DNA of 64,000 nt, taken from positions 62,001 to 126,000 of the forward strand of contig NZ_BLXY01000002.1 of NCBI RefSeq assembly GCF_014193585.1. The letters run 5' to 3'. Shown piece by piece: positions 1 through 40,345 of this stretch. The position numbers were made by a program, and so were the translations under genes. The stretch comes from Geomonas paludis (GTDB lineage: Bacteria > Desulfobacterota > Desulfuromonadia > Geobacterales > Geobacteraceae). Under the pieces are notes generated by a model that did no database searches, was not told the origin of the DNA, and was given only the letters and a program-made list of their open reading frames with translations. The stretch's first letter is position 1. Each line of letters starts with the position of its first letter.

Positions 1-2291
1 GTTCCGGCCGGCCGGTCCTTGAGCCTTGCCTTGCTGGCGGAGGTGTAGAGGACGTTGCGGTAGCGGGCCACCACGAAGTCGCTGCCGTCGTGGAGGGCCG
101 ACAGGGGGAGGTAGCGCAGGGGGCCGTCCAGGTGCCAAAGGATCGTCTGCGCGCCGGCGGCCTCCAACTCGGGTGCCAGGGGACGAAACACCAGGTCGTA
201 GAGTTCCCGGGCCGCGGGGACCGGGTCGCGCAGCACCCCGGCGGCATCGGGCTGCAAAAGCCTGCGGAAGGCGAAGATCTTGTCGGCAAGCTGAGCCGAG
301 CCCACCTTGCGGGTGAAGGCACGGCGGTATTTCGGGGCGATGAGGAGCAGCGTCAACTCCTCCTGGTCGACGATGGTGTAGACGGCGACGGCCCCCGCCC
401 CGAGTTCGGCGAGATCGGCCTGGATGCCGACTGCCTCGCGCACCTCTTCCTTCTCCCTGCGCCGCTCGGCGCCGAAGGAGGCGCAGACCCGGACCAGGGT
501 GGCGTTGAAGGCCTTGGCCGCCTGGTCGATCTCCTTGCCCAGCCTCAAGTACTCGGCCTCCTCATCGGGAGAGCGCGGGGTTTTCTCCTTCAGCGCGCTG
601 CGACGCGCCGAGAGGGCGCCCAGGGGGGCGGCCGCGCGCTCCAGTTCCTGGTGCCGGTCGTTTTCGTACCCGGTCAGGGTCACCCGGCCGGCGGCAAGCC
701 CGGCGGACTCGGCCGAGCGGCGGGCGAACTGTGAGAACTCCTGGTCCTTGAGCAGCTCCATGACGTGCTCCGCCTCCGGGAGTCGCCCCTGGGCCACCAG
801 CAGCGCCGCCAGCTGGCGGTACACTCCCTCTACCGTGGTGCGGAACACGCCTGCATGCTTCACCCCGGAGCCTGCCATATCCTGACGCATGGCCTGGATC
901 CTGTTCACCGCACTCTTGGCAAGGAGTGTCGCCGGGCCCGGTTTCCCTTGGGCCAGCAGCACCTTGGCGTAGGCACTTTGCACCGCCCAGGTCAGGGCCG
1001 GTTGCTGCACGAGGGTCGCGATGGCAAGGGCTTGTTGCAGTTCCTGTTCGGCCTCCGGCTCCTTCCCCTGCAGGTGGTAGACCCAGCCCAGATTGTAGTG
1101 ACGCAGACCGACGGTGGCGGAGACCGGCCCGTGCTGTTCCTCGATCAGCCTGATGGATTCCAGCAGCAACCGCTGCGCAGGCTCGGTTTTCCCCTTCTCC
1201 AGGTAGAGGCCGGCAAGGTTGTTGGTGACCGCGGCCAGACGCGCCGCCTGTGAGCCCCCCCCCTCCCTGAGAATGGCCAAGGCCTTGCTGTAGGTCGTCT
1301 CTGCGTCCACCATACGTCCGGTGACATCGTAGAGAAGGCCGATGTTGTTTCGCAGCACCGCAGCCTCGAAGCTCCCCTCGCCCAGCTTCTCCTTGACGAT
1401 GCGCCAGGAGGTTTCGTATTCCTTGTCCGCCTCCTCGTACCGGCCCCAGACGCGCAACAGGACCCCGAGGTTGTTGCGGACGGCGGCCTCGGCCACCTTG
1501 CATTTGGACAGGATGTCGGGATCCGGGGGGAGCTCACGCTCCTCGACCCGGCGGCTGGTCTTCAATTCCGGCGCCACCGTAACGAATTCCCTGGCCGCCT
1601 CCTCCCGGTCGAACCCCTTTTCGTCCAGCTCGAGGGGGAACTGCTGCAGCCCGGAGGGAGCATGCCCGTCCCTGATGGCGAGCTCGATAACCTGGAGGGC
1701 CAGGCGGTAGCAGTTCTCGGCCTCGGGGTAGTTCCCGGTCTGGCGCAGTGCGCCGGCCAGCCCGTTGAAGCCGAAAGCCAGTTCGGGGTTTGCCACCCCG
1801 GTCCGTTTCAACAACCCGGACACGGCGCCCCTGTGGTAGGCCAGCGCCTGGACCGGGGTCATGGAGGGGTCGAACGTGGTGGCCTGGTCGCCACCTTTTG
1901 CAGGATTGCTGCTTGTCGCGCCGGGGAGGCTTCTCACCCTATCTTCCCGGTTCGGATCCATCCCTTTCATCTTCAGTTCGATGCCGTACACCTCGGCCAG
2001 CTCGCGCTGGCACGACGCCTGGAGTCTGCGGCGCGCGAGCATTTCCTTGGCGGCCGAGGGAGCTTCGGCTGCCTCCCGCGCGCTTCTCTGTGCCGACTCG
2101 GCTTCAGCACGGGCTTTGGCCATTTGCCTTTCCCGGGCCTCCATCTCTGCCTGGGCCCTGAGGACCTCCGCCAGCGCCTTGGCCTGTTCCTCTTCGCCGG
2201 TACCGGTTGGGGGTTGCAAGCGGGCGCCACCCGCTGCACACCCGGTGAATACCAGCAGACACAGAAGTAAGATCCAACTTTTGACAGGCAT
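1..2291 (-). CDS. TPR-CHAT domain lipoprotein (C-terminus cut by window edge)
   Basis: The frame is open from an ATG at 2291 (preceded by AGGGG) to the window edge, 763 codons visible. The N-terminus MPVKSWILLLCLLVFTGC is a lipoprotein signal with lipobox FTGC. Residues about 30-95 are charged, Glu/Ala-rich and probably coiled coil. TPR-like helical pairs lie near residues 168-200 and 270-440 (for example NNLAGLYLEKGKTEPAQRLL). Residues about 620-750 match the front half of a CHAT domain, with WHLDGPLRYLPLSALHDG resembling the CHAT 'PDG-L-LPF-L' segment. The catalytic His-Gly and Cys motifs of CHAT proteases would lie beyond the edge, so activity cannot be judged. CHAT is a caspase-like fold often coupled to TPRs. 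It is the last visible gene of the sigma/anti-sigma/VWA operon, and its lipid anchor suggests an envelope location. Confidence 0.85.
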   Translation of the reverse strand, partial: MPVKSWILLLCLLVFTGCAAGGARLQPPTGTGEEEQAKALAEVLRAQAEMEARERQMAKARAEAESAQRSAREAAEAPSAAKEMLARRRLQASCQRELAEVYGIELKMKGMDPNREDRVRSLPGATSSNPAKGGDQATTFDPSMTPVQALAYHRGAVSGLLKRTGVANPELAFGFNGLAGALRQTGNYPEAENCYRLALQVIELAIRDGHAPSGLQQFPLELDEKGFDREEAAREFVTVAPELKTSRRVEERELPPDPDILSKCKVAEAAVRNNLGVLLRVWGRYEEADKEYETSWRIVKEKLGEGSFEAAVLRNNIGLLYDVTGRMVDAETTYSKALAILREGGGSQAARLAAVTNNLAGLYLEKGKTEPAQRLLLESIRLIEEQHGPVSATVGLRHYNLGWVYHLQGKEPEAEQELQQALAIATLVQQPALTWAVQSAYAKVLLAQGKPGPATLLAKSAVNRIQAMRQDMAGSGVKHAGVFRTTVEGVYRQLAALLVAQGRLPEAEHVMELLKDQEFSQFARRSAESAGLAAGRVTLTGYENDRHQELERAAAPLGALSARRSALKEKTPRSPDEEAEYLRLGKEIDQAAKAFNATLVRVCASFGAERRREKEEVREAVGIQADLAELGAGAVAVYTIVDQEELTLLLIAPKYRRAFTRKVGSAQLADKIFAFRRLLQPDAAGVLRDPVPAARELYDLVFRPLAPELEAAGAQTILWHLDGPLRYLPLSALHDGSDFVVARYRNVLYTSASKARLKDRPAG

Positions 2292-2449
2292 AGGCAACCC
2301 CTGAGTCAGAGCGGTTAATGGTATTTCAGTATCACCAACAGCCGCCAGGAGTAGCACACGCGTTCTACCGGTTACGGACTGTATTTGGCAGCCCGCAGTT
2401 TACTCAATACGAGGATAATTTCAAGATCGATTGCGTCGAAGGTGGGCAT

Positions 2450-2803
2450 TTATGGTGTAGGTTGCGGCTCCCTTTGGGCGGCCTTCAGTTCCTGCACGTA
2501 CTCCCAGAGCTTTTTGAGTCTGGCGGCAGGGAGCCCGGGATACCGGCTGGCGAATTCATCCAGGGCGTAGTGCCGGGCCCTGAGAAACAAAAGGTCCTTG
2601 TCGAGCTGGTCGTACGTCTCGGGAAGAAAGGGTTCCATGCCGGCGCAGACGAATACCGTGTCCCTGAGCGCCACGCTGGGGAGGTCCCCTTCTCTTTTAC
2701 CCTCGGAGCGCGCCAGCTCCTTCATGTCGCACCGCACCGCCGACGCGGCTCCCTGCGCCACCCAGGCCGCAACCAGCAGAACGGCTACTGTCAGAGTCTT
2801 CAT
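2450..2803 (-). CDS. Small exported protein of unknown function
   Basis: 117 residues from an ATG at 2803 with a strong GGAGGA ribosome site. The frame stays open further upstream, but that part has no good start and overlaps the VWA gene. Residues 1-21 form a signal peptide (MKTLTVAVLLVAAWVAQGAASA). The mature part is charged, has two cysteines (RCDM near residue 25 and FVCAG further on), and ends in a helical stretch, ARLKKLWEYVQELKAAQ. I recognise no family. It lies between the VWA and CHAT genes in the same direction, so it is probably co-transcribed and acts in the periplasm or envelope. Confidence 0.7.
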   Translation of the reverse strand: MKTLTVAVLLVAAWVAQGAASAVRCDMKELARSEGKREGDLPSVALRDTVFVCAGMEPFLPETYDQLDKDLLFLRARHYALDEFASRYPGLPAARLKKLWEYVQELKAAQREPQPTP

Positions 2804-2900
2804 ACATATCCTCCGGCGCCGGGCCGTCTCCCCCTCGCCCCAGCCCTCAACGTCGTGGGGGCTGGGGCGGTATGGTCTGCTGGTTGAGGGAGCTGAACTT

Positions 2901-4643
2901 CTAGTTCTTCCCGATGACTTCCGCCGCCTCGACCAGGCGGACGAACTCGGACCGGTCGCCGTGCTCATCGGCGCCACGCGCTCCGCGGGCGAGTTCGAGC
3001 ACCTGCTGGTACGAGGCGTTCCCCCGGTCTTCCGCATCCTGGAGCAGCAGTCCCCATTCCGCCACGGCGGCGGCAAACCGGGTAGCCTCGGAGGCCTGCG
3101 GCAAGGAGACGGCGCTCGCGCTCACCTTCTCCACCAGCTCAACGCTGTCGTCACCTTCGGGCTTTTTGTAACGGAAGCGGATCAGGGCCAGTTCGTCCGA
3201 CCGGTAGGCCGCCTCCTTCACCTGGGTCGTCTGGTAGGTGAGCTCCTGGCTCCCCGCCGCGCCCGGCAGGGCCAGTTCGATCTCGTAGAGCGCGGTTACC
3301 GTGTGACCGGAACCGAGTTCCCCCGCGTCCTTCTTGTCGTCGGCAAAGTCCTCGTTTCTGAGCGCCCTCTTCTCGTAACCGATCAGCCGGTAGGACTTCA
3401 CCTTGGCCGGGTTGAACTCGACCTGCAGTTTGACGTCCTTGGCGATGGCCATCATGGTGCCGCCGAACTGGCGCACCAGTACCTTCTGCGCCTCCATGAG
3501 GTTGTCGAGGTAGGCGTAGTTCCCGTTGCCACGGTCGGCCAGCTTCTGCATCCGGGAATCCTTGTAGTCCCCCATGCCGACGCCCAGGACGCTCAGGAAG
3601 ATGCCGTCGTTGCGCTTGGTCTCGATCAGGCGCACCAGTTCACCCTCACCGCTGACGCCGACGTTGAAATCGCCGTCGGTCGCCAGGATGACCCTGTTGT
3701 TGCCGTTCTTGATGAACTGCTCCTTGGCGATCCGGTAGGCGACTTGGATCCCCTCTCCTCCGTTGGTGCTCCCCTCGGCAACAAGCCCGTCCAGCGCTGC
3801 CAGGATGGTGGCCTTTTCGGAGCCGGCGACCGAGGGCAAGGCTACCCCGGCCTGCCCCGCGTAGGTGACGATGGCGACGCGGTCCTGAGGGCGCAGTTGT
3901 CTGACCAGCATCTTGAACGATTTGACCAAAAGCGGCAGCTTGTTGGCCTCGGCCATGGACCCGGAGACGTCGACCAGGAACACCAGGTTCGCGGGGGGCA
4001 GCTGTTCGGTGGGGATCTTGCGCCCCTGCAGGGCGATGCGCAGCAGCTTGTGCCCGGGCTGCCAGGGTGCGTCGGTCAGTTCGGAGCTGAAGGCAAAGGG
4101 GATATCGCCCCGGGGCTGGGGATAGTCGTAGCCGAAGTAGTTGACCAGCTCCTCGATACGCACCGCATCCGGCGGAGGAAGGGTGCCACCGCTGAGATAG
4201 CGGCGGACGTTGGCGTAGGAGGCGGTATCCACGTCGATGGAAAAGGTGGAAAGCGGGTTTTTCAGCACCTCGAGAAACCGGTTTGCCTCGATACGGGAGT
4301 ACTCCTCGGTGTTGAAGCTCGAGGGAGGGGGCGGGGCAGGAGCAGCCGTCATTCCCGCCATGCGGTACGCCCCGGCGGCCGGCGGCGCCATCACCGCGGC
4401 GGGAGCGGCCATGGCCTTCTTGGCACGCGCATGTTCCGTCTGGACCTGGTAGGCAGCAACGGACGCCTCCCCTGCGGCTGCGGCGAGCGCAGCCTCCCGG
4501 CGTCTTGCCCGGTCACCACATGCGGTCATGCTGGCGACGCACAAAAGAAGCAGTGACAGCCAAAGCAATCTAAGCCGCAGGCTGCCGCTACCCGCTGCGC
4601 GACTCTCTCTCTTTACGGCACGGTTCAGCACGGATCTGGTCAT
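2901..4643 (-). CDS. VWA-domain lipoprotein (YfbK-like)
   Basis: 580 residues. ATG at 4643 follows GGGGGA; an in-frame GTG at 4661 is a weaker alternative. The signal LLLLCVASMTAC has a lipobox-like end, so a lipoprotein is predicted. Residues about 100-200 (NTEEYSRIEANRFLEVLKNP, FSIDVDTASYANVRRYL) are typical of the segment ahead of the VWA domain in YfbK-like proteins. The VWA domain starts near residue 218, with MIDAS residues D225, S227 and S229 in VDVSGSM. A C-terminal domain with FNPAKVKSYRLIGYEKR follows, as in the family. VWA domains bind metal and mediate protein-protein contacts; the partner is unknown. It lies between the anti-sigma gene and the small exported protein, in the same direction. 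Confidence 0.9.
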   Translation of the reverse strand: MTRSVLNRAVKRESRAAGSGSLRLRLLWLSLLLLCVASMTACGDRARRREAALAAAAGEASVAAYQVQTEHARAKKAMAAPAAVMAPPAAGAYRMAGMTAAPAPPPPSSFNTEEYSRIEANRFLEVLKNPLSTFSIDVDTASYANVRRYLSGGTLPPPDAVRIEELVNYFGYDYPQPRGDIPFAFSSELTDAPWQPGHKLLRIALQGRKIPTEQLPPANLVFLVDVSGSMAEANKLPLLVKSFKMLVRQLRPQDRVAIVTYAGQAGVALPSVAGSEKATILAALDGLVAEGSTNGGEGIQVAYRIAKEQFIKNGNNRVILATDGDFNVGVSGEGELVRLIETKRNDGIFLSVLGVGMGDYKDSRMQKLADRGNGNYAYLDNLMEAQKVLVRQFGGTMMAIAKDVKLQVEFNPAKVKSYRLIGYEKRALRNEDFADDKKDAGELGSGHTVTALYEIELALPGAAGSQELTYQTTQVKEAAYRSDELALIRFRYKKPEGDDSVELVEKVSASAVSLPQASEATRFAAAVAEWGLLLQDAEDRGNASYQQVLELARGARGADEHGDRSEFVRLVEAAEVIGKN

Positions 4644-4777
4644 TTCTGTCCCCCCTGTCACTCAAAGTCGTGGTGCAAACTCTGAGAAGGGAGACGGAAA
4701 ATGCCGACATTTCCCCCGCACATTTTTTTTGCGGACCGGATGCCGCTCTTCGGCCAAGGCAGGCTTTGGCGCCGCCC

Positions 4778-5884
4778 CTAGCGGGTGACCTCCGCCAGGT
4801 TCCTGGCGAGGGCCTTCAGCCGGCTGAACTTCATCGGCGAGTCGCCCTCGGCCGCGACCGCCAGTATCTGCCGGATCAGGCCGGCGGTATCGCTGGAGAA
4901 GGGGCCTGACACGAGGGCGTTGCCGGTCGCGGTGAACCAGCCGGTGGCAAAAAGCGCAGGGTCGTTGGCCGAAGCGGCAACCAGCACCGCCTTCGACCAG
5001 GCCCCGAGGGCGACATGGGGGTCGACGGAGGGGGTTACCGGGGTAAAGAGCTGCTCGATCCGGCGCGCCAGAATGTTTTGCTCCGCGCTTTTCAGGTCGG
5101 TGACCAGCCTGGCCAGTTCGTCACCAGGCGCGCCGGCGCCCGGCTGCAGGTGCGTCGCCGCCTGCCGGAGCAGCTCTGCCGCAGGCTCGCGCTCGCCCCG
5201 GGCCAGGGACAGCCTCGCTTCCAGGAGCTCTCCGCCGGCAAGGAAACGGGCGCGGGCCCGCGACTCGGCAGCCGAACCGGCAAAGGAGCGCATCTCTGCT
5301 TGTCCCGCACGGGGTTGCGGCAGTTTTGCCAAAACGGCCAGCGCCGGGGCAAACCCTCCGGCAGGGGCGGCTTTGGCCTTGGCGCTGGCAGGCTCGCCAG
5401 GCTGTGGCGCGGCCGGCTGTCCGGGCGTCACGGCTGCAGCGGGAGCCGTCGCCTGTGCCGGGGGAGTGGCCTGCATCGGCACCGACCCGGACGGTGGCAC
5501 TTGCTGCACCACGGGAGGCGCCAATTCCTTCATGGCCAGGCGCGGAGCTGCCGACTCGCGGACCAGACGCAGGGAGAGTGCCACCAGCAGGAGCGCTGCC
5601 AGGGCCAGCGGCACGCGAATGCGCCACCTGCGACGGGCCAGCAGGCGCTCCTCGCGTGCAAGCTCGGCGGCGACCCCGAAGGAGCGCAGACAGCTGTCGC
5701 AACTTGCCAGATGCGCCATCAATCGTTTGCGCACCTCCTCCCGTGCCCGCACCTCGACCAGCAGGTCGATCTCCTCGGGAGCAAGGCACGGCCCCTCAGG
5801 CGGCGCGGAGCGCAGGACCGCAGCCAACGCCTCGCCGGCGCGGTCATGTTGCATTCCGCTATGGTGACCTTTATCTTCGCTCAT
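4778..5884 (-). CDS. Transmembrane zinc-finger anti-sigma factor
   Basis: 368 residues. The cytoplasmic N-terminus carries the ZAS motif H58-x3-C62-x2-C65 (HLASCDSC). One transmembrane helix follows at about 91-107 (VPLALAALLLVALSLRL). After it comes a long Pro/Ala-rich linker of about 80 residues and a helical periplasmic domain. The gene lies 14 bp downstream of the ECF-like sigma gene, the usual arrangement for a sigma/anti-sigma pair. The inferred role is to hold that sigma factor at the membrane until an envelope signal acts on the periplasmic part. The C-terminal domain resembles nothing I can name. Confidence 0.85.
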   Translation of the reverse strand: MSEDKGHHSGMQHDRAGEALAAVLRSAPPEGPCLAPEEIDLLVEVRAREEVRKRLMAHLASCDSCLRSFGVAAELAREERLLARRRWRIRVPLALAALLLVALSLRLVRESAAPRLAMKELAPPVVQQVPPSGSVPMQATPPAQATAPAAAVTPGQPAAPQPGEPASAKAKAAPAGGFAPALAVLAKLPQPRAGQAEMRSFAGSAAESRARARFLAGGELLEARLSLARGEREPAAELLRQAATHLQPGAGAPGDELARLVTDLKSAEQNILARRIEQLFTPVTPSVDPHVALGAWSKAVLVAASANDPALFATGWFTATGNALVSGPFSSDTAGLIRQILAVAAEGDSPMKFSRLKALARNLAEVTR

Positions 5885-5898
5885 AGTCCCTCACCTGC

Positions 5899-6732
5899 TC
5901 ACAGGATATCGTCGGGGCCGATCCCCTTCCCGGCCAGGTGGTTCCGGAATCCGTCCAGGATGCGGCGCAGCTTGTGATCCGCCGCTTTGGGGGTCTTGCC
6001 CAGGTAGTTGGCAATGTCGCTGACCGTGCACTTGCGCTCCCGCTGCTCGAGGTAATAAAGGCGCACCATCACCTTTCCCTCGTCGTCGAGCAGTTCCTCG
6101 AGGTCCTTCAGCACCTCCCTGCGCAACAGCTCCTTCCTCTTCTCGATGGTAAGCCATTCCGGGTTCCACCTGTCGTCCACAATCTCGAAGTCCGACGGCT
6201 CCGGGTCCCCCCCCTCCTCGGGTGGGGAGAGCACGACCTTGTTGCCGTCGGTGGGCGGCAGGGCGTTGGATCCCTTGATGCGCTGCTCCATGGCATAGAC
6301 GTCTTCCCAGGACAGGCTGCCCCCAAAGGAGTATGCCACCTCGGCGTGAATGGCGTCGGTCGTGTGCCCTCTTTTCATAAGCTCACGCACGCGCACGCCG
6401 ACGGCGCCGAATTCCCTGGCCCGTTCGCCGCCGCGGTCTTTGCCGTGCCGCTCGGCCAGAATGTCCTTGAAGAGGTTCTCGATGCAGCTGCGGAAAAAGG
6501 TCTTGACGTTGCGGATCTCGCTGGTGCGCAGCCGCCGGTAATCATCGGCCATGAACTGATCCAGCACGCGCCCCAGCAGGTACTCGGCGTCGTCGGCTGC
6601 GGCGTCGTCCAAAGAGCCTCCGTGCCAATGCACCACCTTCACACACACGCGCTTTATGAAGGGGTAATTGGCACTGAGCAGCTTTTTGTAGTGGTCGCTC
6701 AGATGCAGTATGTTGAGGAAAAAAAGAAACAT
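5899..6732 (-). CDS. ECF-like RNA polymerase sigma factor
   Basis: 277 residues from ATG 6732. The N-terminal part (HYKKLLSANYPFIKRVCVKV, then a helical segment ending RNVKTFFRSCIENLFKDIL) resembles sigma region 2. The C-terminal part (VMVRLYYLEQRERKCTVSDI, then ANYLGKTPKAADHKLRRIL) is a region 4 helix-turn-helix. The linker between them, about 100 residues, is longer than in a typical ECF factor of about 180-200 residues. It heads the leftward operon with the anti-sigma gene next, and is divergent from the WD40-caspase gene at 6950, which makes that gene a candidate regulon member. I could not define the promoter it recognises. Confidence 0.85.
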   Translation of the reverse strand: MFLFFLNILHLSDHYKKLLSANYPFIKRVCVKVVHWHGGSLDDAAADDAEYLLGRVLDQFMADDYRRLRTSEIRNVKTFFRSCIENLFKDILAERHGKDRGGERAREFGAVGVRVRELMKRGHTTDAIHAEVAYSFGGSLSWEDVYAMEQRIKGSNALPPTDGNKVVLSPPEEGGDPEPSDFEIVDDRWNPEWLTIEKRKELLRREVLKDLEELLDDEGKVMVRLYYLEQRERKCTVSDIANYLGKTPKAADHKLRRILDGFRNHLAGKGIGPDDIL

Positions 6733-6869
6733 TGGCGGTTACCTGAAAGAACCCGTTTGAAGCCAGGTGCCTTTTCTATCAGATTAAATAGCCTATATCC
6801 AGAGTTTTATACGCATGGCGGATGTGATACATTGCAGCTCACTCAAACTGGTACCTGATCAGCGCCAAC

Positions 6870-6906
6870 GCCCTCACCCTAGCCCTCTCCCGGAGGAAGA
6901 GGGGAT
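6870..6906. repeat. Family A palindromic repeat, partial copy
   Basis: The sequence CCCTCACCCTAGCCCTCTCC followed by GGAGGAAGAGGGG matches the family A elements listed elsewhere in this window. It lies in the 217-bp divergent gap between the sigma gene and the WD40-caspase gene, about 45 bp before the latter's start codon. Confidence 0.7.
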
Positions 6907-6949
6907 GGCGGAAGATGATCCTACCGGGAAATGAAAAGGAACTACTGGT

Positions 6950-9900
6950 ATGCATGGGCTTCTCAAACTGGTGATGAGCAGACTCGAGACGGTGATGCTC
7001 AGGTCCTGGCATGGTAGTGCCACCTGCGACAGCGCTGCCGGGCGGAAACGGGCTGGTATGGTCGTCGCCGCGGTTTCCTTCTTGTTCGCAATCGCGGTAA
7101 CCGTTCCTGCCATGGCCGAAGGGGACCGGACCAACTCCTTCGCGGGATCCGCCTCGCCGTCGGCAGCCCCCCCACCCTTGAGTCTGGAAGTGGTCAAGGT
7201 TGCGGCCGACCGCCGGCAGGCAGAAATTGCTCTCAGGTCCCAGGGAGACCAGGGGGAAAAGAGACTTTTTCTGGACGAAGAACCGCTGCCGGTGACCCGA
7301 GATGCCACCTTCCAGGTGCCACTGCACCCGGGCGAGAACCTGGTTACCGGCACCGTAAGCGCCAACGGCGCGTCGTTCCGTACAGACATCGTGCTCAAGG
7401 GACCGCCGGTCGAATTGGACAAGGCCGCGGTGCGCACCGTGGTGCAACAGCCGCAAGATGCACAGGGTGTGTTGAGCCCGGATTCGCGCTACCTGGTGCT
7501 AACCTGGAAAGAGTTCGCAGGCGTATGGGACGCGCGCAGCAACCTGCTGCAGCGCAAACTTTCGGGCCACAAAGGGTACGTATCGTCAGCGGCCTTCAGC
7601 GCGGGGAGCAAGCTACTGGTCACAGGTGCGGAGGATGCGGTCCGCATCTGGCGCTTGAGAGACGGGCAGTTGACGGCGCAGTTCCCGGCGGAGAATCCGG
7701 TCACCGCCGTGGCCATCAGTCCTGACCTGCGGCGGGTGGCGGCGCTGGAAAGGGGGCCTGCCGGCTCCAAGCTTGTGCTCTGGGAGACAGCTACAGGCGT
7801 GCGCCGCCCCTCCAGCCTCGACATTTACGACGGGAGCGTCTCCCTGGCCTTCAGCCCCGATTCGGCCCAGCTTGCCTTGGCCATGGGGGGGTACACCTTT
7901 TTGGTCGATTCCCGAACCGGCCAGGAAACAACCGGTTACCTCCCCCTCACTTCTCCCGTGGTATACGCAGCAGACGGCAGGACGCTTACGGGAAGCGCAG
8001 GGCGCACCAGGATCAACCTGAAGTCCGGCGAGGTCCAGGACCTTACCGCACCGTTCAAGGGTCTTGCTGTCCAGGGGCAGCTACTGTTTTCCAGCGACGG
8101 GTCGTGGGCTGCAGATGTCGCCGGCGACTCGCTCCGCATTTACCGCACGTCGCAGCCCGGGCAACCGGCGTACTCGTTCCCATTCGGCGGCACCGGTATG
8201 TTCAGCGACAACAGCAGGTTTCTGTACGTGATGACAGGCGGCGGTGAAGTAAAGATCGACCTGGTAAGCGGACGAGCCCTGGGCAGTTACCGCCCTGCCC
8301 AGGCAAACCTTGAGCATGTGAACGCGGTGGCCTTCGGGACCGACCAGTTGCCCCTCATCAGCACCTACCACGGCGTGCTCCGGGTTACTCCCCAGGGCCC
8401 CCTCGAGAACAGCACCCTCCAATTCTCCAGCGACCCTTTTGAATTTGCCGTTATCCTCCCCGGCCAAAACCTGGTCGCCTCCGCCCGCTGGATCGGGGGA
8501 GGTGTGGCCTGGTCGGACGCCATGTCCGGCAAGGTGGTGCGCTCCACCAGGACGGAAAACGGCGCAGGACTGCTCACCAGCATTGAGGCCAGCCCGGATG
8601 GCCGGCTGGTGTCGGTAGCACGGGCCGATTCCTGGGTCGACGTCTTCAATTCGGCAGACGGTGCGTCGGTCCTGCGTGTCAAGGGGACCGATATCCCGCA
8701 AGCTACCGCGTTCGCCCCTGATGGTGCATCCCTGGTTGTGGGGTACGGAGGGGGCAGCGCAGATGCACTGGTGCTGGATGGTTTCCCAACCCAAGACCTC
8801 GTTGTGGACCACCGTCTCCACATCAGGTCGCTCCCCATGGGTAACGTGCTGCGCTACCTGGAAGGACACACCGCGCAAGTGACAGGGGTGGCCTGGAGCC
8901 GTGACGGCGCCTACATCGCCAGTTCCGGGGCAGATGGCTCTCTCAGGCTTTGGGATGCCAATTCCGGAAAGCTGCTCACATCGACTGCATCTCCCGCTTA
9001 CCGCAGCTTGCGCTTTCTGGCCAAGTCGAACCTGCTGGTTGCAACGGGGGCCCGGGAGACCGTGCTGCACCTGTACCGGGTGCCTGACCTGACCCTGGTA
9101 AGCCAGGCGCCGCTGGCGAACACCGCTGGTTCCCTGGCCGTGAACGACCGGGAGGACCGCCTTTTAACCGCCGAGAACCAGACCGCCACCCTGTGGCAGC
9201 TCCCGGAACTGAAGGTGATAGCGACCTTCCTTCCTGTCGCCGGAAACGGTTACCTGGTCTACAGCCCTGACGGCTACTACATGAGCTCCGGCGCCTCCGG
9301 GGCCCTGGCCTTCGACGTCGGGGGGCGCATGGCGCCTTTCGACGAGTTCGACCTGCGCTTCAACCGCCCAGACCTGATCCTGAAACGGCTGGGTGCAGGT
9401 GATGCGGCCAGCATCGCAGCCTTCGAAACGATCTACCGGAAGAGGTTGTCGCGCCACGGTCTCACCGCACAGGCAGCCGAGTCTCCCGCCCCCCTTCCCG
9501 AGGTTCGTGTGGACCAGTGGTCCCAGCAGGGAGACCGGGTCACACTGGAACTTTCCGGGGCGGGACATGGTCAACCGGTGCGCGCCTTCAAGGTCTGGGA
9601 CAACGGGGTACCCGCCTTCGGCAGGGGTGGCGCCGCAGCGCTGTCCAGCGATGGGAGCGGCGCGACGGCGAAGCTGGAGGTACAGCTCTCCGCAGGGGTG
9701 AACCACCTGGAAATCGCCGCGGTCGACGCCTCCGGAGTGGAGAGCATACGCGAGTCCCTGGACCTCTTCCGCCCGGGCCTCCCGGAAAAGCCTGTGTTGC
9801 ACGTACTGGCTGCCGGGGTGTCGCAGTACGAGCAAAAGGAACACAACCTGGTCTACGCCGACAAGGACGCCACCGACATCGCCTCCCTCTTTCAGAGGCA

Positions 9901-11701
9901 GAGTGGCTTCCGCTACCGCAGCGTCACCGCCGATATCAAAACCAACGGTTCGGCCCGGCGCGCCGATCTGCTGCAATCGCTGGAGAAGCTGAGAAACGTC
10001 CCGGTAAACGACTACGTGGTAATCTTTCTGGCCGGGCACGGGCTGTTGGACAACAAACTCGATTACTACTTCGCGACCGCCGACACCGACTTTGCCAAAC
10101 CATCACAAAGCGCGATCAGCTTCAGCGAACTCGAGGATGCCCTGTATGCCATACCGGCCCGGCACAAGATACTGCTGATTGACAGCTGCCACGCCGGAGA
10201 GGTCGACACCTCCACCTACGCAGCCAGCGCGAGCAACCAGCCGCAAGATCGCCAAGAGGTGGGCATGACGGCGACCGGAGTCGCGAAGACCCCGGTGGTG
10301 GTGCGCGAGGTGCCCCGTGGCAGAGTGGCCCTGGCCAAGATCTCGGGCCGGCAAGGCGACGACCAGTTGGAGGCGCTGCTTGGAGACCTGCGTCGCGGTT
10401 CGGGGGCGAGTATCGTGTCGGCCTCAGCCGGCCAGCAGTTCTCCTACGAGTCGGACAAGTACCGAAACGGCATCTTCACGCACGAACTGGTGTACGGGGT
10501 AGAGACGGGAGAGGCGGATCTGAACGGAGACGGTAGCTTCGACGTCTCGGAGTTGCGCAGTTACGTGGAGACCAGGGTGGTGGCCGCCACCGGGGGACGT
10601 CAGCGCCCGACCTCGCGTGGCAGAGATATGGTGGAGCAGCGTATCGCCAACCTCAACATGCTGGTGGGAAGCGACCAGGTGCATCCCCTCTCCGCTCCGA
10701 GTTACCAGCGCAAGGCAGCACCGATTGCAGCCCAGGGCCGCGGAGGGCTTGCCGCAGCCGCCGTCGGTGAATTCGTGCGGCTTTACGATCTCGATAACGG
10801 CACCCTTGCCACGGTCCTTCCTGTGCTGCCCCGGCAAGAAGGGAAAACTGTCAGTGCCACCGACGCTTATGCCAATACACTGCTGGCCCTGGCTGCTGAC
10901 GGCACCGCCTTGGTGGCGCTAGGTAGCAGGTGGGGGAGCGTCGTCAAACTGGCAGACCGCAGCAACCGTTACCTTGACCTGCGGGGAGCCTACCTCCACG
11001 CTGCCGCCATGGCGCCGGACGGCACCCTGCTCCTGGTACAGGATCCCCGAACGTCCAAGGAACTGGTGCGCGAGCTCAGGATGCTCGACCCGGCCGGAAA
11101 CGACCTCAAGATCCACCAGTTGGCGAAGCAACTCCCATCCTTCGTCCATGCGCTCCACATAAGCGACGACCACTCGGTGGCCAGCGCGGCATGCAGTGAA
11201 GGTGGCGACGACTACCGCATCATCACCTGGGAGGTCAACACGGGACGGCTCCTCTGGGAAAGAAAATCCAGGTTTGTCTTGTCGGTAGCACTGTCGCCCG
11301 ACGGGAAATCCGCCCTGGTTACCCTCCCGCCTCGGGACGAAAGCGGGTCCGAAGGGGAAGGCCTCGTCCTGCTGGACGCGCGCTCGGGCACGGAGAAGGC
11401 CCGGCTGGCGCCGCCACGTGATGGCGCCCCGATCACCGCCCTGTCGATTGCGCCCGACGGGACCACAGCCGCAGTGGCCACTGTTCACGCTGGTTTGCAC
11501 GGGGCAAACCTGGGCAGGGTAGACCTTCTGGCACTGCCGGGACTGCAGCGTCTGTCATCCGGTCTGATGCACCACGGTTGGGTCAAGTCACTGGGGTTCG
11601 GCAACAACGGAAGCTCCATCATCACCTCTACGGAGGAGGGAAAAGTTTCGATGTGGAACATCTCTTCACTATTAGGGGACCTGCGTTTGCGTTCGCGCTA
11701 G
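6950..11701 (+). CDS. Exported WD40-caspase (peptidase C14) protein with EF-hand loop
   Basis: 1583 residues. ATG 6950 follows AAGGA. A long n-region (to RKRAG) precedes a hydrophobic signal core ending VPAMA at about residue 54, so export is predicted. WD40-like repeats fill about residues 150-770; the clearest is YLEGHTAQVTGVAWSRDGAY followed by GSLRLWDANSGK. A beta domain leads into a caspase domain at about 950-1220 with the catalytic dyad H1030 (FLAGHG) and C1080 (LLIDSCHAGE). Within it, D1190-E1201 (DLNGDGSFDVSE) is a textbook EF-hand calcium loop with ligands at D1190, N1192, D1194, S1196, D1198 and E1201. A second propeller-like region fills about 1240-1583. It is divergent from the ECF/anti-sigma operon. 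Substrate and trigger are unknown. Confidence 0.9.
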   Translation: MHGLLKLVMSRLETVMLRSWHGSATCDSAAGRKRAGMVVAAVSFLFAIAVTVPAMAEGDRTNSFAGSASPSAAPPPLSLEVVKVAADRRQAEIALRSQGDQGEKRLFLDEEPLPVTRDATFQVPLHPGENLVTGTVSANGASFRTDIVLKGPPVELDKAAVRTVVQQPQDAQGVLSPDSRYLVLTWKEFAGVWDARSNLLQRKLSGHKGYVSSAAFSAGSKLLVTGAEDAVRIWRLRDGQLTAQFPAENPVTAVAISPDLRRVAALERGPAGSKLVLWETATGVRRPSSLDIYDGSVSLAFSPDSAQLALAMGGYTFLVDSRTGQETTGYLPLTSPVVYAADGRTLTGSAGRTRINLKSGEVQDLTAPFKGLAVQGQLLFSSDGSWAADVAGDSLRIYRTSQPGQPAYSFPFGGTGMFSDNSRFLYVMTGGGEVKIDLVSGRALGSYRPAQANLEHVNAVAFGTDQLPLISTYHGVLRVTPQGPLENSTLQFSSDPFEFAVILPGQNLVASARWIGGGVAWSDAMSGKVVRSTRTENGAGLLTSIEASPDGRLVSVARADSWVDVFNSADGASVLRVKGTDIPQATAFAPDGASLVVGYGGGSADALVLDGFPTQDLVVDHRLHIRSLPMGNVLRYLEGHTAQVTGVAWSRDGAYIASSGADGSLRLWDANSGKLLTSTASPAYRSLRFLAKSNLLVATGARETVLHLYRVPDLTLVSQAPLANTAGSLAVNDREDRLLTAENQTATLWQLPELKVIATFLPVAGNGYLVYSPDGYYMSSGASGALAFDVGGRMAPFDEFDLRFNRPDLILKRLGAGDAASIAAFETIYRKRLSRHGLTAQAAESPAPLPEVRVDQWSQQGDRVTLELSGAGHGQPVRAFKVWDNGVPAFGRGGAAALSSDGSGATAKLEVQLSAGVNHLEIAAVDASGVESIRESLDLFRPGLPEKPVLHVLAAGVSQYEQKEHNLVYADKDATDIASLFQRQSGFRYRSVTADIKTNGSARRADLLQSLEKLRNVPVNDYVVIFLAGHGLLDNKLDYYFATADTDFAKPSQSAISFSELEDALYAIPARHKILLIDSCHAGEVDTSTYAASASNQPQDRQEVGMTATGVAKTPVVVREVPRGRVALAKISGRQGDDQLEALLGDLRRGSGASIVSASAGQQFSYESDKYRNGIFTHELVYGVETGEADLNGDGSFDVSELRSYVETRVVAATGGRQRPTSRGRDMVEQRIANLNMLVGSDQVHPLSAPSYQRKAAPIAAQGRGGLAAAAVGEFVRLYDLDNGTLATVLPVLPRQEGKTVSATDAYANTLLALAADGTALVALGSRWGSVVKLADRSNRYLDLRGAYLHAAAMAPDGTLLLVQDPRTSKELVRELRMLDPAGNDLKIHQLAKQLPSFVHALHISDDHSVASAACSEGGDDYRIITWEVNTGRLLWERKSRFVLSVALSPDGKSALVTLPPRDESGSEGEGLVLLDARSGTEKARLAPPRDGAPITALSIAPDGTTAAVATVHAGLHGANLGRVDLLALPGLQRLSSGLMHHGWVKSLGFGNNGSSIITSTEEGKVSMWNISSLLGDLRLRSR

Positions 11702-11868: not shown

Positions 11869-12714
11869 ATGTCAGGTATCAAGGCAAAGCTGCACTGTCT
11901 TGCGTTTGCTTTTGTCATGATGGCAACCCTCCCCTGCCAGGCATCCGCCTCAGAAAAGGTATATTCGCTGGCGGTAGTGCCTAACCTCCCTGCGGTAACG
12001 CTGCACAAGAACTGGACTCCGGTGGTGGATTACCTCTACCGCCAGGCCGGCGTCAAAATCGAACTCAAGCTCTACGACAAGATCACCACGTTCCTCGAAG
12101 AGGCCAAGGGCGACGATGTCGACTTCGTCTACGCTGCTCCCAACATGTTCTACCTGGCCTACCAGAAGCAGAAATACATCCCTTTGGTGCGGGGCTCCAA
12201 CATGCTGCGGGGCCAGGTCTTTGTCCGCAAGGACTCGCCTTACAGCCAGGTCAAGGACCTCAAGGGCAAGACCATCGCCATCGTCGGCCCGAAAAACGTC
12301 TGCAGCGTCATCACCCGTCAGGCGCTGCTCTCCGGCCAGCAGATCGATTTCAACGTCTCCTTCAGCGGTTCCACCATCAACGTCGCCAAAAGCGTCCTGG
12401 TCGGCAAGGCCGATGCCGGAGCCACCCTGGACAGCAGCATGATCGACGACTTTCCGGAAATGCAGAAGGAGTTCCGGGTCCTAATGAAAACCCAAGAGGT
12501 AGCCCCCCACCCTCTCGCCGCCCATCCAAGAGTTCCCAAGAAGGTTCGCGACGCGGTCACCACCGCCCTGCTCAGTCTGGGCGGCACCGAACAAGGGCGC
12601 AAGATGCTGAAAGCGGTCAAACTAGACACCCCGGTGAGGGCGGATTTCCAACGCGATTACGCATTCTTTGCCCGCGTCGACTTCGACCTGCTCGACAAAC
12701 AGCAGCCCAAATAA
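11869..12714 (+). CDS. PhnD-like periplasmic substrate-binding protein
   Basis: 281 residues; ATG 11869 follows GAGGAG. Signal peptide 1-28 ends QASAS. The fold matches the phosphate/phosphonate-type binding protein family: EKVYSLAVVPNLPAVTLHKN at the start, VDFVYAAPNMFYLAYQ in the middle, and a hinge segment LKGKTIAIVGPKN. No permease or ATPase gene is nearby. A hybrid histidine kinase starts 8 bp downstream, so this protein is more likely a ligand receptor for the kinase than part of a transporter. The ligand is unknown; family membership alone does not prove phosphonate binding. Confidence 0.85.
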   Translation: MSGIKAKLHCLAFAFVMMATLPCQASASEKVYSLAVVPNLPAVTLHKNWTPVVDYLYRQAGVKIELKLYDKITTFLEEAKGDDVDFVYAAPNMFYLAYQKQKYIPLVRGSNMLRGQVFVRKDSPYSQVKDLKGKTIAIVGPKNVCSVITRQALLSGQQIDFNVSFSGSTINVAKSVLVGKADAGATLDSSMIDDFPEMQKEFRVLMKTQEVAPHPLAAHPRVPKKVRDAVTTALLSLGGTEQGRKMLKAVKLDTPVRADFQRDYAFFARVDFDLLDKQQPK

Positions 12715-12722
12715 CCGCCCCG

Positions 12723-14987
12723 ATGTTCAAGCGCCTCGAAGTCAAAATCATCGTATCGCTGGCCCTGATCCTCACCGCCATGATAGCCGTCTACGGCCGA
12801 TGGACGGGGAGCCGGCAGCAGACGATCTACGTCCAGGCGCTCACGGACAACCTGCGGGTTCTCGCCCATAGCCTCGCCGACAACGCCGCCGGATTCATCG
12901 TGATCAAGGAATACGCCGGTCTGGAGGCGCACATGATGAACGCGGCCCAGATGCCGGACGTGGTCACCATCCAGGTCATCGAGCCCACCGGCAACCTGTT
13001 GTGCAACGTGGTGCGCCCCTCACGCGACACCTCCCCCCGGCTCGTATATGACAGCAGAACCGTAACCGTCCCCACCTCGCCCAAACCCGTGCTCAAACGC
13101 AGTGGCGACCAGCTCGTTTGCTGGGCGCCGATCACCGCCGGCACCCACTTGGGCTGGGTGCGCATGGCCCTCAGCCTGGAGACGGCGGACCAGTTGCAGC
13201 AGGCCACCTGGCACAGCAGCCTGCAGATCGGCGCCCTGTGGATCGTCGTCGGCACCCTGCTGATGTTCGTGGTGGTCCGGCGCCCGCTGCGGGCGGTACG
13301 CGAATTGAGTCTGTTCGCCCAGGACCTGCAGGACCGCAAGGGAGCACAGGTGTCGGTGCGGCGCGGGGTCTACGAGATCGACCTGCTGGCTGATGCTCTG
13401 AACCACTCTTCCACCGAACTGCGTGACGCCGAGCAGCGCCTCATGGCGGAACAGGAGCGGCTCACGGTCACCCTGCAATCCATCGGTGACGGTGTCATCG
13501 CCACCGACACCGACAACAGGATTGTCCTGCTCAATCACGTTGCCGAGGTCCTCACCGGCTGGAGCGAGGCGGAAGCGCTATGGCAGCCACTGGACGAGGT
13601 GCTGAAGCTTAATGGGAACAAGGAAGTGTCCGAAGTCATGGCGGAACTGCACCACGTGATCGAGGCGAGACAGGCGCTCGAGTTGCACGGGCAGCACAGG
13701 CTTCAGGCCAGAAGCGGCGCCGAACGCACCGTCACCGTCAACAGCGCTCCCATCATCAACAGCTCCGGAGAGCTGGCGGGGATGGTGCTGGTAATCCATG
13801 ACGTCACGGAAAAAGCGAAGATGGAAGCGGAGAAGCAGGGCCTGGCGCAGCAGTTGATACAGTCCCAGAAGATGGAGGCGGTCGGCCAGTTGGCAGGCGG
13901 TGTAGCGCACGATTTCAACAATATGCTCGGCGTGATCATCGGGCACGCCGAGTTGGGTATGCTTACCGCCGAACCGACCTCTCAGATGCACGACCGGCTC
14001 AAGGAGATTCTCGATGCCGCCAAGCGGTCGGCGGAGATCACCAAGCAGTTGCTGGCCTTCTCCCGGCAGCAGCACGCCGAGCCCAAGGTCCTCGACCTCA
14101 ACGAGACCATCGCCAGGATGCTCAAGATGCTGCACCGTCTGATCGGCGAGGACATCGACCTCTCCTGGTCGCCGGGATTCGATCTCTGGAAGGTGAAGCT
14201 GGACCCGTCACAACTGGACCAGGTCATGGCCAATCTCTGCGTCAACGCCCGCGACGCCATCGCCGGGGTCGGCACGATACAGATCTTCACCGAAAACGTC
14301 ACCCTCGACCTGCATGCCCACCCCTGCATGGCCGACCTGGCGCCGGGGGACTACGTGATGCTGGTGGTGGCGGACAACGGACGGGGGATGACGCGGGAGG
14401 TGATGGATCGCATCTTCGAGCCGTTTTACACCACCAAGGAGCTTGGTCGCGGCACCGGTCTCGGCCTCGCCACCGTGTTCGGCATCGTCAAGCAGAATTG
14501 CGGCAGTATCGAGGTGGTCAGCGAACCCGACCAGGGAGCAACCTTCCGGGTCTACCTGCCGGCGGTGCATGAGGCAGCCCAGGAAGCGAAGCCGGAGGGG
14601 GTAAGGCCGGAGGGAGGAACGGAGCGAATCCTGCTGGTGGAGGACGAAGCGGCCATCTTGGCAATCGGATCTACCATCCTGACCGGGCTGGGCTACACCG
14701 TGTACCCGGCAGCCTCACCGGAGCAGGCCATCGATATCGCTGCCGACCCGGGCAAGGTGATCGACCTGCTTCTTACCGACATCATCATGCCGGGCATGAA
14801 CGGCCGGGACCTGTCCGAGCAGCTGTTGAGAAGCCGCCCCGGCTTGAAGTGCCTGTTCATGTCCGGCTACACCTCCGACGTCATTGCCCAGCGGGGCAAG
14901 GTCGAGGAGTACATGTGCTTCCTGCAGAAGCCCTTCACCATGCAGACGCTGGCGGCCAAGGTCAGGGAGGCACTGGCCAGCTCCTGA
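12723..14987 (+). CDS. Membrane hybrid sensor histidine kinase with PAS and receiver domains
   Basis: 754 residues. TM1 is at about 8-24, a periplasmic sensor region at about 25-170, TM2 at about 173-190. A HAMP-like linker and a PAS domain (VTLQSIGDGVIATDTDNRIV) follow. The HisKA domain has phospho-acceptor H396 in GGVAHDFNN. The ATPase domain shows NLCVNARDA (N-box), DNGRGM (G1), FEPFYTTKE (F-box) and GTGLGLATV (G2). The C-terminal receiver domain has acidic EDE and phospho-acceptor D686 (LLTDIIMPGMNG), with K in LQKPF. No separate response regulator is adjacent, so phosphotransfer to a distant protein is likely. It is co-directional with the PhnD-like gene 8 bp upstream. Confidence 0.92.
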   Translation: MFKRLEVKIIVSLALILTAMIAVYGRWTGSRQQTIYVQALTDNLRVLAHSLADNAAGFIVIKEYAGLEAHMMNAAQMPDVVTIQVIEPTGNLLCNVVRPSRDTSPRLVYDSRTVTVPTSPKPVLKRSGDQLVCWAPITAGTHLGWVRMALSLETADQLQQATWHSSLQIGALWIVVGTLLMFVVVRRPLRAVRELSLFAQDLQDRKGAQVSVRRGVYEIDLLADALNHSSTELRDAEQRLMAEQERLTVTLQSIGDGVIATDTDNRIVLLNHVAEVLTGWSEAEALWQPLDEVLKLNGNKEVSEVMAELHHVIEARQALELHGQHRLQARSGAERTVTVNSAPIINSSGELAGMVLVIHDVTEKAKMEAEKQGLAQQLIQSQKMEAVGQLAGGVAHDFNNMLGVIIGHAELGMLTAEPTSQMHDRLKEILDAAKRSAEITKQLLAFSRQQHAEPKVLDLNETIARMLKMLHRLIGEDIDLSWSPGFDLWKVKLDPSQLDQVMANLCVNARDAIAGVGTIQIFTENVTLDLHAHPCMADLAPGDYVMLVVADNGRGMTREVMDRIFEPFYTTKELGRGTGLGLATVFGIVKQNCGSIEVVSEPDQGATFRVYLPAVHEAAQEAKPEGVRPEGGTERILLVEDEAAILAIGSTILTGLGYTVYPAASPEQAIDIAADPGKVIDLLLTDIIMPGMNGRDLSEQLLRSRPGLKCLFMSGYTSDVIAQRGKVEEYMCFLQKPFTMQTLAAKVREALASS

Positions 14988-36285: not shown

Positions 36286-37082
36286 TTCCGGTCACCTCCC
36301 CTGCTGTGGGTGGCGGCTAGTGCCGCTGCCGCCATCCCGGCCGCGGCCAGCGCCATAACGCCCCACGACCCTGCCACTCCCTTGGTCGGCACGATAGGGT
36401 CGGGAGGGAGGTTGTAGGCCTCGGGTCGGTCCAGCAGCAGGAAGAAGGCATGCAGCCCTTCCGTGCCGGGCTGGTCCCGTTCGCTCATCCCGTAGAGCCA
36501 TGCCTCGGTCACACCGCGCCGGTGCAGCTCCTGCAGCCTGGCCTGGGCCATCTCCCTCAGGTCATCGAGCTTGCCGAAGGCGATGGAATCGGTCGGGCAG
36601 GCCTTGGCGCAGGCAGGCTCCACCCCGTCTTTCTGGCGGTCGTAGCAGAGCGTGCACTTCCAGGCGCGGCCGTCGTCCTCGCGCCGGTTGATGACGCCGA
36701 AGGGGCAGCAGACAACACAGTAGCCGCAGCCGTTGCAGACGTCGGGCTGGACGTAGACGGTGTCGAACTCGGTGCGCACGATGGCGCCGGTGGGGCAGGC
36801 CTCCAGGCAGCCGGCGCGCTGGCAGTGCTTGCAGACGTCGGACATGAGGAGCCAGGAGAATGGCCGTGACGTGGTCTGCCCGGAGAGCCGGGCCTGGCGC
36901 TCCACGAACGCGACATGGCGCCACGTGGTCGCCTCCAGGTGAATGGTGTTGTCGTAGGAACGGCCGCTGAAAAAGTCACCATCGGCGGGGAGTTGGTTCC
37001 ACTGCTTGCAGGCGACCTCGCAGGCCTTGCAGCCGATGCAGACGCTGGTGTCGGTAAAGAAACCGGTAGCTGGAGTGGTCAT
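36282..37082 (-). CDS. fdnH: Formate dehydrogenase iron-sulfur subunit
   Basis: 266 residues. Four ferredoxin-like cysteine clusters are visible: CIGCKACEVACKQWN, CKHCQRAGCLEACPTGAI, CNGCGYCVVCCPFG, and CTLCYDRQ...CAKACPTDSI. The pattern matches the beta subunit of respiratory formate dehydrogenases and related DMSO-reductase-type complexes. A hydrophobic segment near the C-terminus (WGVMALAAAGMAAAALAAT) resembles the membrane anchor of FdnH. The gene overlaps the catalytic subunit gene by 4 bp and the NrfD gene by 4 bp. The symbol follows E. coli usage and is tentative. Confidence 0.9.
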   Translation of the reverse strand: MTTPATGFFTDTSVCIGCKACEVACKQWNQLPADGDFFSGRSYDNTIHLEATTWRHVAFVERQARLSGQTTSRPFSWLLMSDVCKHCQRAGCLEACPTGAIVRTEFDTVYVQPDVCNGCGYCVVCCPFGVINRREDDGRAWKCTLCYDRQKDGVEPACAKACPTDSIAFGKLDDLREMAQARLQELHRRGVTEAWLYGMSERDQPGTEGLHAFFLLLDRPEAYNLPPDPIVPTKGVAGSWGVMALAAAGMAAAALAATHSRGGDRK

Positions 37083-40000: not shown

Positions 40001-40345
40001 CCATTTCTTGCCGTAGGGGCGCCGGTACAGGACGTTCATGGTCCGGTGCGTCCCGGTGACCAGTTGCATGGTAGCCGAGCCCTTCGGGCACAGGCACCCC
40101 TCCGAGATGGGCGAGTCGTAGTCCCCCTCGATGTCCAGGATCTTGCCGTCCTTGACATAGACCTTCTGGCCGCACCCGACGCCGCAGTAAGGGCAGACCG
40201 ACCCCACCACCTTGTCCGCTTCGGCGGTCCTTGGTTTAAGGGAGCGCGTTCTCTCTGTCATAGCGGATTCACCCAATCCGGCCGGATCGCCGCTGGCAAC
40301 CTGGCGCAGGGCCGGCCACTTCAAGAACCAGTTATTCTTTGCCAT
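37079..40345 (-). CDS. fdnG: Formate dehydrogenase catalytic subunit, selenocysteine at residue 190 (UGA read-through)
   Basis: 1088 residues when the in-frame TGA at 39778-39776 is read as selenocysteine. The frame continues without shift: NQARI-U-HSSTVPGLGIS, equal in place to the U of FDH-N (about 196). N-terminal [4Fe-4S] cysteines are in VCPYCGVGCG and GCLCPKG. After U come SNMAECHPVGFRWVMEAKRR and the molybdopterin-binding domains, ending before the fdnH overlap. A GGUCU-loop SECIS follows the UGA directly. ATG 40345 is preceded by AAGGAG. The N-terminus MAKNNWFLKWPALRQVASGD lacks a twin-arginine signal, so cytoplasmic placement is possible. Automated calls would split this gene in two (39776-40345 and 37079-39667). 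Confidence 0.93.
39749..39778 (-). promoter_or_regulatory. Selenocysteine codon UGA with bacterial SECIS hairpin
   Basis: The UGA is 39778-39776. Fourteen bases on, CCCC (39761-39758), loop GGTCT (39757-39753) and GGGG (39752-39749) form a hairpin, extendable by one A-U and one G-U pair. GGUCU is the apical loop of the E. coli fdhF SECIS, which SelB recognises, and the spacing is similar. Confidence 0.85.

Follow-up and report, generated by a model that had tools for sequence, protein, structure and literature searches.

The left end of a 64,000-nucleotide stretch of the Geomonas paludis genome (G000:C2:62001-126000, hereafter the window; G000 is the organism's own genome, 5.1 Mb in 30 contigs) carries exported caspase-clan proteases beside a sigma-70 family factor and a membrane-spanning zinc anti-sigma. 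The locus is real, recurrent and functionally suggestive. We suggest that it is an envelope switch, in which the exported proteases and the transmembrane anti-sigma work together; for this whole mechanism we put the probability at about 0.4. The suggestion is built on the parts themselves, with their intact active-site residues and export-like N-termini, on the layout of the anti-sigma and on the recurrent linkage of the sigma family to caspase-clan genes. The strongest single point is that the compartment of the proteases follows that of the anti-sigma. All six genes named in a preliminary description of window 1-11701 lie where it had placed them:

1..2291, minus strand (whole gene G000:C2:61259-64291): TPR-CHAT lipoprotein, 1010 amino acids.
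2450..2803, minus strand: small exported protein, about 117 amino acids.
2901..4643, minus strand: VWA/YfbK-type lipoprotein, 580 amino acids; an alternative GTG start is possible at 4661.
4778..5884, minus strand: zinc anti-sigma of the ZAS type, 368 amino acids, with one membrane span.
5899..6732, minus strand: sigma-70 family factor, 277 amino acids, with sigma2 and sigma4 domains and a conserved insert between them.
6733..6949, no strand: divergent intergenic region between the sigma and WD40-caspase genes, 217 bp.
6950..11701, plus strand: exported WD40-C14 caspase protein, 1583 amino acids, with an intact His-Cys dyad.

The TPR-CHAT gene starts at 2291 and its final 742 bases lie to the left of the window edge, where the preliminary description had proposed to look for the catalytic residues of the CHAT domain. 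This flank was read, and both His and Cys are intact (ASHFHF and SACETA). The protein matches CHAT in Pfam with E=2.7e-56 (191.6 bits, cut-off 24) and TPR_12 with 84.6 bits (cut-off 30.1), has the lipobox pattern and is assigned to the TPR-CHAT proteases. The WD40-caspase matches C14 with E=2.6e-13 (50.6 bits, cut-off 21.4), carries LAGHG and DSCHAG, begins with an export-like N-terminus and is assigned to the C14 caspases (orthocaspases). The two proteases of the preliminary description are thus exported with intact active-site residues, but their number was an undercount. The cluster is cut by the window edge and extends about 11.8 kb further left, with a CHASE2 protein, exported proteins of 295 and 152 amino acids, a TPR protein and an HtrA-like protease with a PDZ domain, and then an M48 metalloprotease with TPRs, a 180-amino-acid protein and a second exported C14 caspase (C14-DUF4384, the DUF4384 match being under the cut-off). 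The latter scores 40.7 bits with the NCBIfam model caspase_w_EACC1, below its cut-off of 140. The HtrA of this cluster has all three trypsin motifs.

The same residues are kept elsewhere in the families. His and Cys are present in 14/14 aligned C14 rows and in 5/5 CHAT rows, and HExxH in all nine M48 proteins; in the HtrA of genome G147 the Asp and Ser motifs were found and the pattern of the His motif was not. Export was called with a simple hydrophobicity rule on N-termini. The rule is positive for 22/22 C14, CHAT and C10 proteins, versus 7/217 stretches taken from inside these proteins and 0/11 sigmas. Two of these 22 (that of G044 and one of G061) lie on contigs other than the sigma's, and the G015 entry stands for its WD40 part alone, with the caspase domain continuing in another frame. 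Eight of nine M48 proteins pass the rule (that of G126 fails), and the strict lipobox pattern fails in the CHAT proteins of G427, G147 and G015.

The zinc anti-sigma with a single membrane span, as described preliminarily, stands. The hallmark of zinc (class I, ZAS) anti-sigmas is an H-x3-C-x2-C motif plus an upstream ligand. The window anti-sigma has both, the motif starting at residue 58, with C33, H58, C62 and C65 as ligands; these four are invariant in 16/16 family anti-sigmas. Its span occupies residues 89-107 and there is no second one. One span is also found in all 16 (best 19-residue mean hydrophobicity 1.91-2.79, second best at most 1.45), followed in each by 107-271 further residues. 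The predicted structure shows a helical zinc domain, a long membrane-crossing helix, a linker at 116-174 mostly with local confidence (pLDDT) below 50 and a predicted all-helical outer domain at 178-366, for which comparison with solved structures gave no clear match. The tail past the span is placed outside, because the zinc domain of such anti-sigmas is sigma-binding and lies on the cytoplasmic side.

The pairing of caspase-clan genes with this sigma family, which the preliminary description had seen once, recurs. C14 domains are found in 15/18 and CHAT domains in 14/18 sigma-bearing genomes (44 and 24 matches). A C14 or CHAT gene lies within 20 kb of the sigma in 12 of the 14 judgeable loci, where 0.5 are expected (probability 3e-17, computed as if genomes were independent); with the own genome excluded, 11 of 13 are linked against 0.4 expected (4e-16, likewise). 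The exact order of the six genes was seen at none of the remaining 17 sigma loci, the flanks being short at four of these. With the same four included, a VWA relative stands beside the sigma in two of the 18, our own and G415.

Instead, several unlike gene orders are built around the sigma and anti-sigma genes. Outside the order, in G427 and G209, both genes are divergent to a TPR-CHAT gene (36% identity over 889 residues and 34% over 868, respectively). G147 has M48, TPR-CHAT and HtrA genes with them, and G015 has CHASE2, a homologue of the 295-amino-acid protein, PLD, TPR-CHAT, WD40-caspases and M48. In G042 and its kin the set includes, among others, M48, an SLH protein, a transglutaminase, a WD40-caspase, FecR and a CHASE2-cyclase. 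G133 encodes a WD40-caspase that matches the lipobox pattern. The sigma and anti-sigma genes of G061 flank a gene for a C14 caspase, whose export-like start ends in LSGC; an extra domain of the G061 anti-sigma looks, on visual inspection, like the small exported protein known from other loci. G133 and G125 share 83% identity in the sigma and 78% in the anti-sigma and differ in their proteases, a WD40-caspase versus C10. The G125 locus (L028, 918-12117, minus strand) encodes a C10 cysteine peptidase, recognized in Pfam, along with another protein that shares about 70% identity with the first. Both have an export-like N-terminus and a GCVATA motif. In G415 the sigma and anti-sigma are accompanied by VWA, and a genome-wide search found neither C14 nor CHAT. 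The sigma chassis is not caspase-only, because G125 has C10 peptidases and G415 neither C14 nor CHAT.

A comparison with loci away from this sigma bears on the compartment of the proteases. Nine CHAT/caspase stretches, hand-chosen, were fetched from genomes without the sigma or from places away from it, and the sigma and anti-sigma profiles of the window family matched in none of the nine. Two (L117 and L125) begin at a contig edge within the CHAT or caspase gene itself and are too truncated for a judgement, and in three (L122, L123 and L124, from G004, G065 and G081) CHAT lies beside CHASE2 relatives, with the sigma not in the stretches read. In the remaining four (L118-L121, from G127, G108, G013 and G102) CHAT lies near a different pair of a sigma-like and a zinc protein, the sigma-like gene being divergent. 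The sigma-like protein (366-438 amino acids) matches sigma70-ECF weakly (E 1e-4 to 0.016), and Pfam finds sigma region 4 in two of the four and GerE in the other two. The zinc protein (373-381 amino acids) has H-x3-C-x2-C and no clear membrane span; three of the four loci have an additional small protein of about 140-152 amino acids. CHAT is without an export-like start in three of them. These loci apparently form a second, cytoplasmic module. Altogether, the side of the protease agrees with the topology of the anti-sigma in 15/16 loci (Fisher P=0.007, relatedness ignored), and therefore we predict that the anti-sigma is a substrate.

The sigma factor itself needs a more careful name than the ECF-like (extracytoplasmic function) sigma of the preliminary description. 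It is a member of the sigma-70 family with both sigma2 and sigma4 domains, but it gives 30.1 bits with the NCBIfam model sigma70-ECF (E=3.3e-7), short of the cut-off of 42.9, and in Pfam it has only a helix-turn-helix match. Searched against the PDB, a profile of 14 sigma relatives retrieves sigma factors (best E 6e-4). The predicted model (mean pLDDT 72; predicted template modelling score, pTM, 0.37) matches solved sigma2 and sigma4 domains; the match to RpoS draws its score mostly from sigma4. ECF (group 4) sigmas have a short linker and no sigma3-like domain. The window sigma is probably not a textbook ECF factor, because about 90 residues separate sigma2 and sigma4; across 14 sequences the first 60 of them are conserved, and the model makes them mostly helical.

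We suggest the following sequence of events for the locus. It keeps the preliminary idea of an envelope switch with exported proteases as far as this idea concerns proteases whose active sites are intact, a neighbouring transmembrane zinc anti-sigma and the recurring linkage, but it does not build on a conserved gene order.

Step 1: The membrane-spanning zinc anti-sigma would hold a dedicated sigma in the cytoplasm. On the far side of the membrane, a flexible linker would lead to the folded domain of the anti-sigma. The TPR-CHAT lipoprotein and the WD40-caspase would share the compartment with this outer part, and their TPR and WD40 repeats would recognise partners.

Step 2: With an envelope signal the protease would become active and the anti-sigma would be clipped, directly or via HtrA. 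We infer this cutting because proteases and outer domain share a side, because the linkage recurs and because the linker has the architecture described above. The signal and the regulon belong to the same conditional part of the scheme.

Step 3: Membrane proteolysis, for which an RseP homologue is present, would then free the sigma, and the sigma would transcribe the module, with the WD40-caspase gene (6950-11701) as a candidate member of its regulon. A two-part promoter motif common to 10 cluster upstream regions, including the sigma/WD40-caspase intergenic region 6733-6949, was not found.

Several observations weigh against this scheme. The CHAT of G102 is weakly export-like, although it belongs to the soluble module. 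G039, G042, G043 and G053 are close relatives, so the genomes behind the linkage probabilities are not independent. The loci of G044, G106, G112 and G126 were set aside, a contig end being too near the sigma. Finally, G125 and G415 carry the sigma without C14 or CHAT nearby.

The main rival, which we consider possible though somewhat unlikely, is that the proteases are output only: the sigma would answer envelope damage and make exported quality-control proteases (HtrA, M48 and caspases) that clear damaged proteins, while housekeeping proteases cut the anti-sigma. HtrA and M48 genes within the cluster fit this, as do the M48 relatives that recur in eight other loci (G015, G147, G039, G042, G043, G053, G126 and G111), the RseP homologue and the occurrence of the switch without caspases in G415 and G125. 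However, the agreement between the compartments of protease and anti-sigma is unexpected if the two never meet, and TPR- or WD40-bearing caspase-clan proteins are usually considered selective rather than bulk proteases.

A role in conflict or cell death is a less likely explanation. Here, an attack by a phage, predator or rival would free the sigma, and the exported caspases would damage the envelope of the cell itself or of the attacker. Caspases are assigned to conflict systems in the accessible part of PMC8195603, and models of PADLOC match the second caspase (E 6e-19) and HtrA (E 1.7e-18). The distribution agrees as well: the sigma system is rare, patchy and accessory. Within the order, 14/141 genomes have a match to the sigma, our own being one of them and the rest 28-33% identical. 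The family profile finds 5/395 genomes in the phylum at E 1e-10 (our own counted), 2/9 in G427's family and 1/17 in G147's (each including the centre genome). On the other hand, at E 0.001 PADLOC recognizes neither the sigma nor the anti-sigma, VWA, M48 or CHASE2 proteins and gives only weak repeat matches for CHAT and the WD40-caspase, and tblastn with the sigma found no match on the plasmids searched.

That a sigma/anti-sigma/VWA operon merely adjoins an unrelated island of exported proteins is very improbable: the spacing of about 100-200 bp at many gene boundaries, the VWA gene accompanying the sigma in caspase-free G415, the missing common promoter motif and CHAT beside CHASE2 without a window-type sigma (L122-L124) would suit it, but what speaks against it is that 12 of the 14 judgeable loci show the linkage, and that they do so with several different gene orders.

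The other parts of the neighbourhood are given here for completeness. The intergenic gap between sigma and anti-sigma is 14 nucleotides. The VWA/YfbK lipoprotein has vWF_A, VWA and YfbK_C domains in Pfam and the lipobox pattern, and the small exported protein (2450-2803) has no family in Pfam (E 0.01) or NCBIfam (E 0.1). Adjoining the WD40-caspase on the right, at 11869-14987 on the plus strand, are a phosphonate-type binding protein and then a PAS histidine kinase with a receiver domain. To the left of the cluster, G000:C2:34001-50000 (L018) encodes further, mostly exported proteins: ankyrin-DUF900, RHS-repeat, OmpA, TolB-like, DsbC-like, C92 and amidase_3 proteins and one with Hsp90-like ATPase matches. 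The own genome has nine C14 matches, the most among the 18 genomes searched (runner-up 5), and two CHAT matches. Elsewhere in the window, the gene at 37079-40300 on the minus strand, whose product we take from its sequence to be a formate-dehydrogenase-like molybdoprotein, contains a single TGA in frame, at residue 175 of the part that was read and with RIUHSS as the surrounding residues; it resembles a selenocysteine codon.

Regulated intramembrane proteolysis is represented in E. coli by RseA/DegS/RseP/RpoE. As in that system, the anti-sigma of our locus is transmembrane and a protease lies outside, and an HtrA-like protein and the RseP homologue are present. Unlike in that system, the linked proteases on the outside are for the most part cysteine proteases of the caspase clan, and the anti-sigma belongs to the zinc type. 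The E. coli system is cited in the accessible part of PMC10028731, which describes type III-E Craspase (Cas7-11, TPR-CHAT/Csx29, Csx30 and CASP-sigma). There, a TPR-CHAT protease likewise accompanies an ECF-like sigma and its inhibitor Csx30, which the protease cuts. In our locus, by contrast, we find exported proteases, and a zinc anti-sigma that spans the membrane takes the place of the inhibitor; no Cas families, Cas7-11 of Craspase being the one in question, are listed for the scanned neighbours in Pfam or PADLOC. Craspase would add another case to the soluble side.

Sigma-70 genes coupled with caspase relatives were reported in 2012 in four metacaspase operons of M. xanthus (PMC3501461, as far as its accessible text goes), with the same operon structure in Anaeromyxobacter, Haliangium, Sorangium, Ralstonia and Fibrobacter and possibly with signal peptides on the metacaspases. 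The accessible text names no anti-sigma, CHAT, HtrA or M48 for these operons. EACC2-caspase systems (PMC8195603, accessible part) also couple caspase and ECF sigma genes, together with a TPR protein, and autopeptidase activation is proposed for them. Unlike in our locus, EACC2 is fused to the caspase, and that part of the paper mentions outward-facing domains such as CHASE2 and not an exported caspase. The word "sigma" does not occur in the main text of PMC7159879 as far as it is accessible. The preliminary view that the locus is unlike the systems usually described is therefore too broad, given the 2012 report, but it may hold for export combined with a transmembrane anti-sigma: among the papers listed, no title or abstract opening describes exported caspase/CHAT proteases with such an anti-sigma, which does not prove absence. 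Sigma-caspase operons and Craspase are already known; exported proteases with a membrane-spanning anti-sigma appear to be the new element.

A broader proposal, which we regard as rather unlikely, is that a caspase-clan protease with a sigma/anti-sigma pair constitutes a general signalling class, with Craspase as its CRISPR-guided cytoplasmic case. The exported protease would then be the site-1 protease for a transmembrane anti-sigma, TPR-CHAT would act inside where the anti-sigma is soluble, and CHAT, WD40-C14, lipoprotein C14 and C10 proteases would be exchangeable on one chassis.

Last but not least, relatives of caspases in bacteria have mostly been viewed as conflict or cell-death effectors. 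If the envelope switch is true, the exported caspases would gain a role in envelope signalling, and the proteolytic step upstream of such sigmas would become testable, probably in cultivable members of Geomonas, a harmless soil genus. The recurrence of the pairing in related switches suggests a protein-cutting signalling system outside the cytoplasm.
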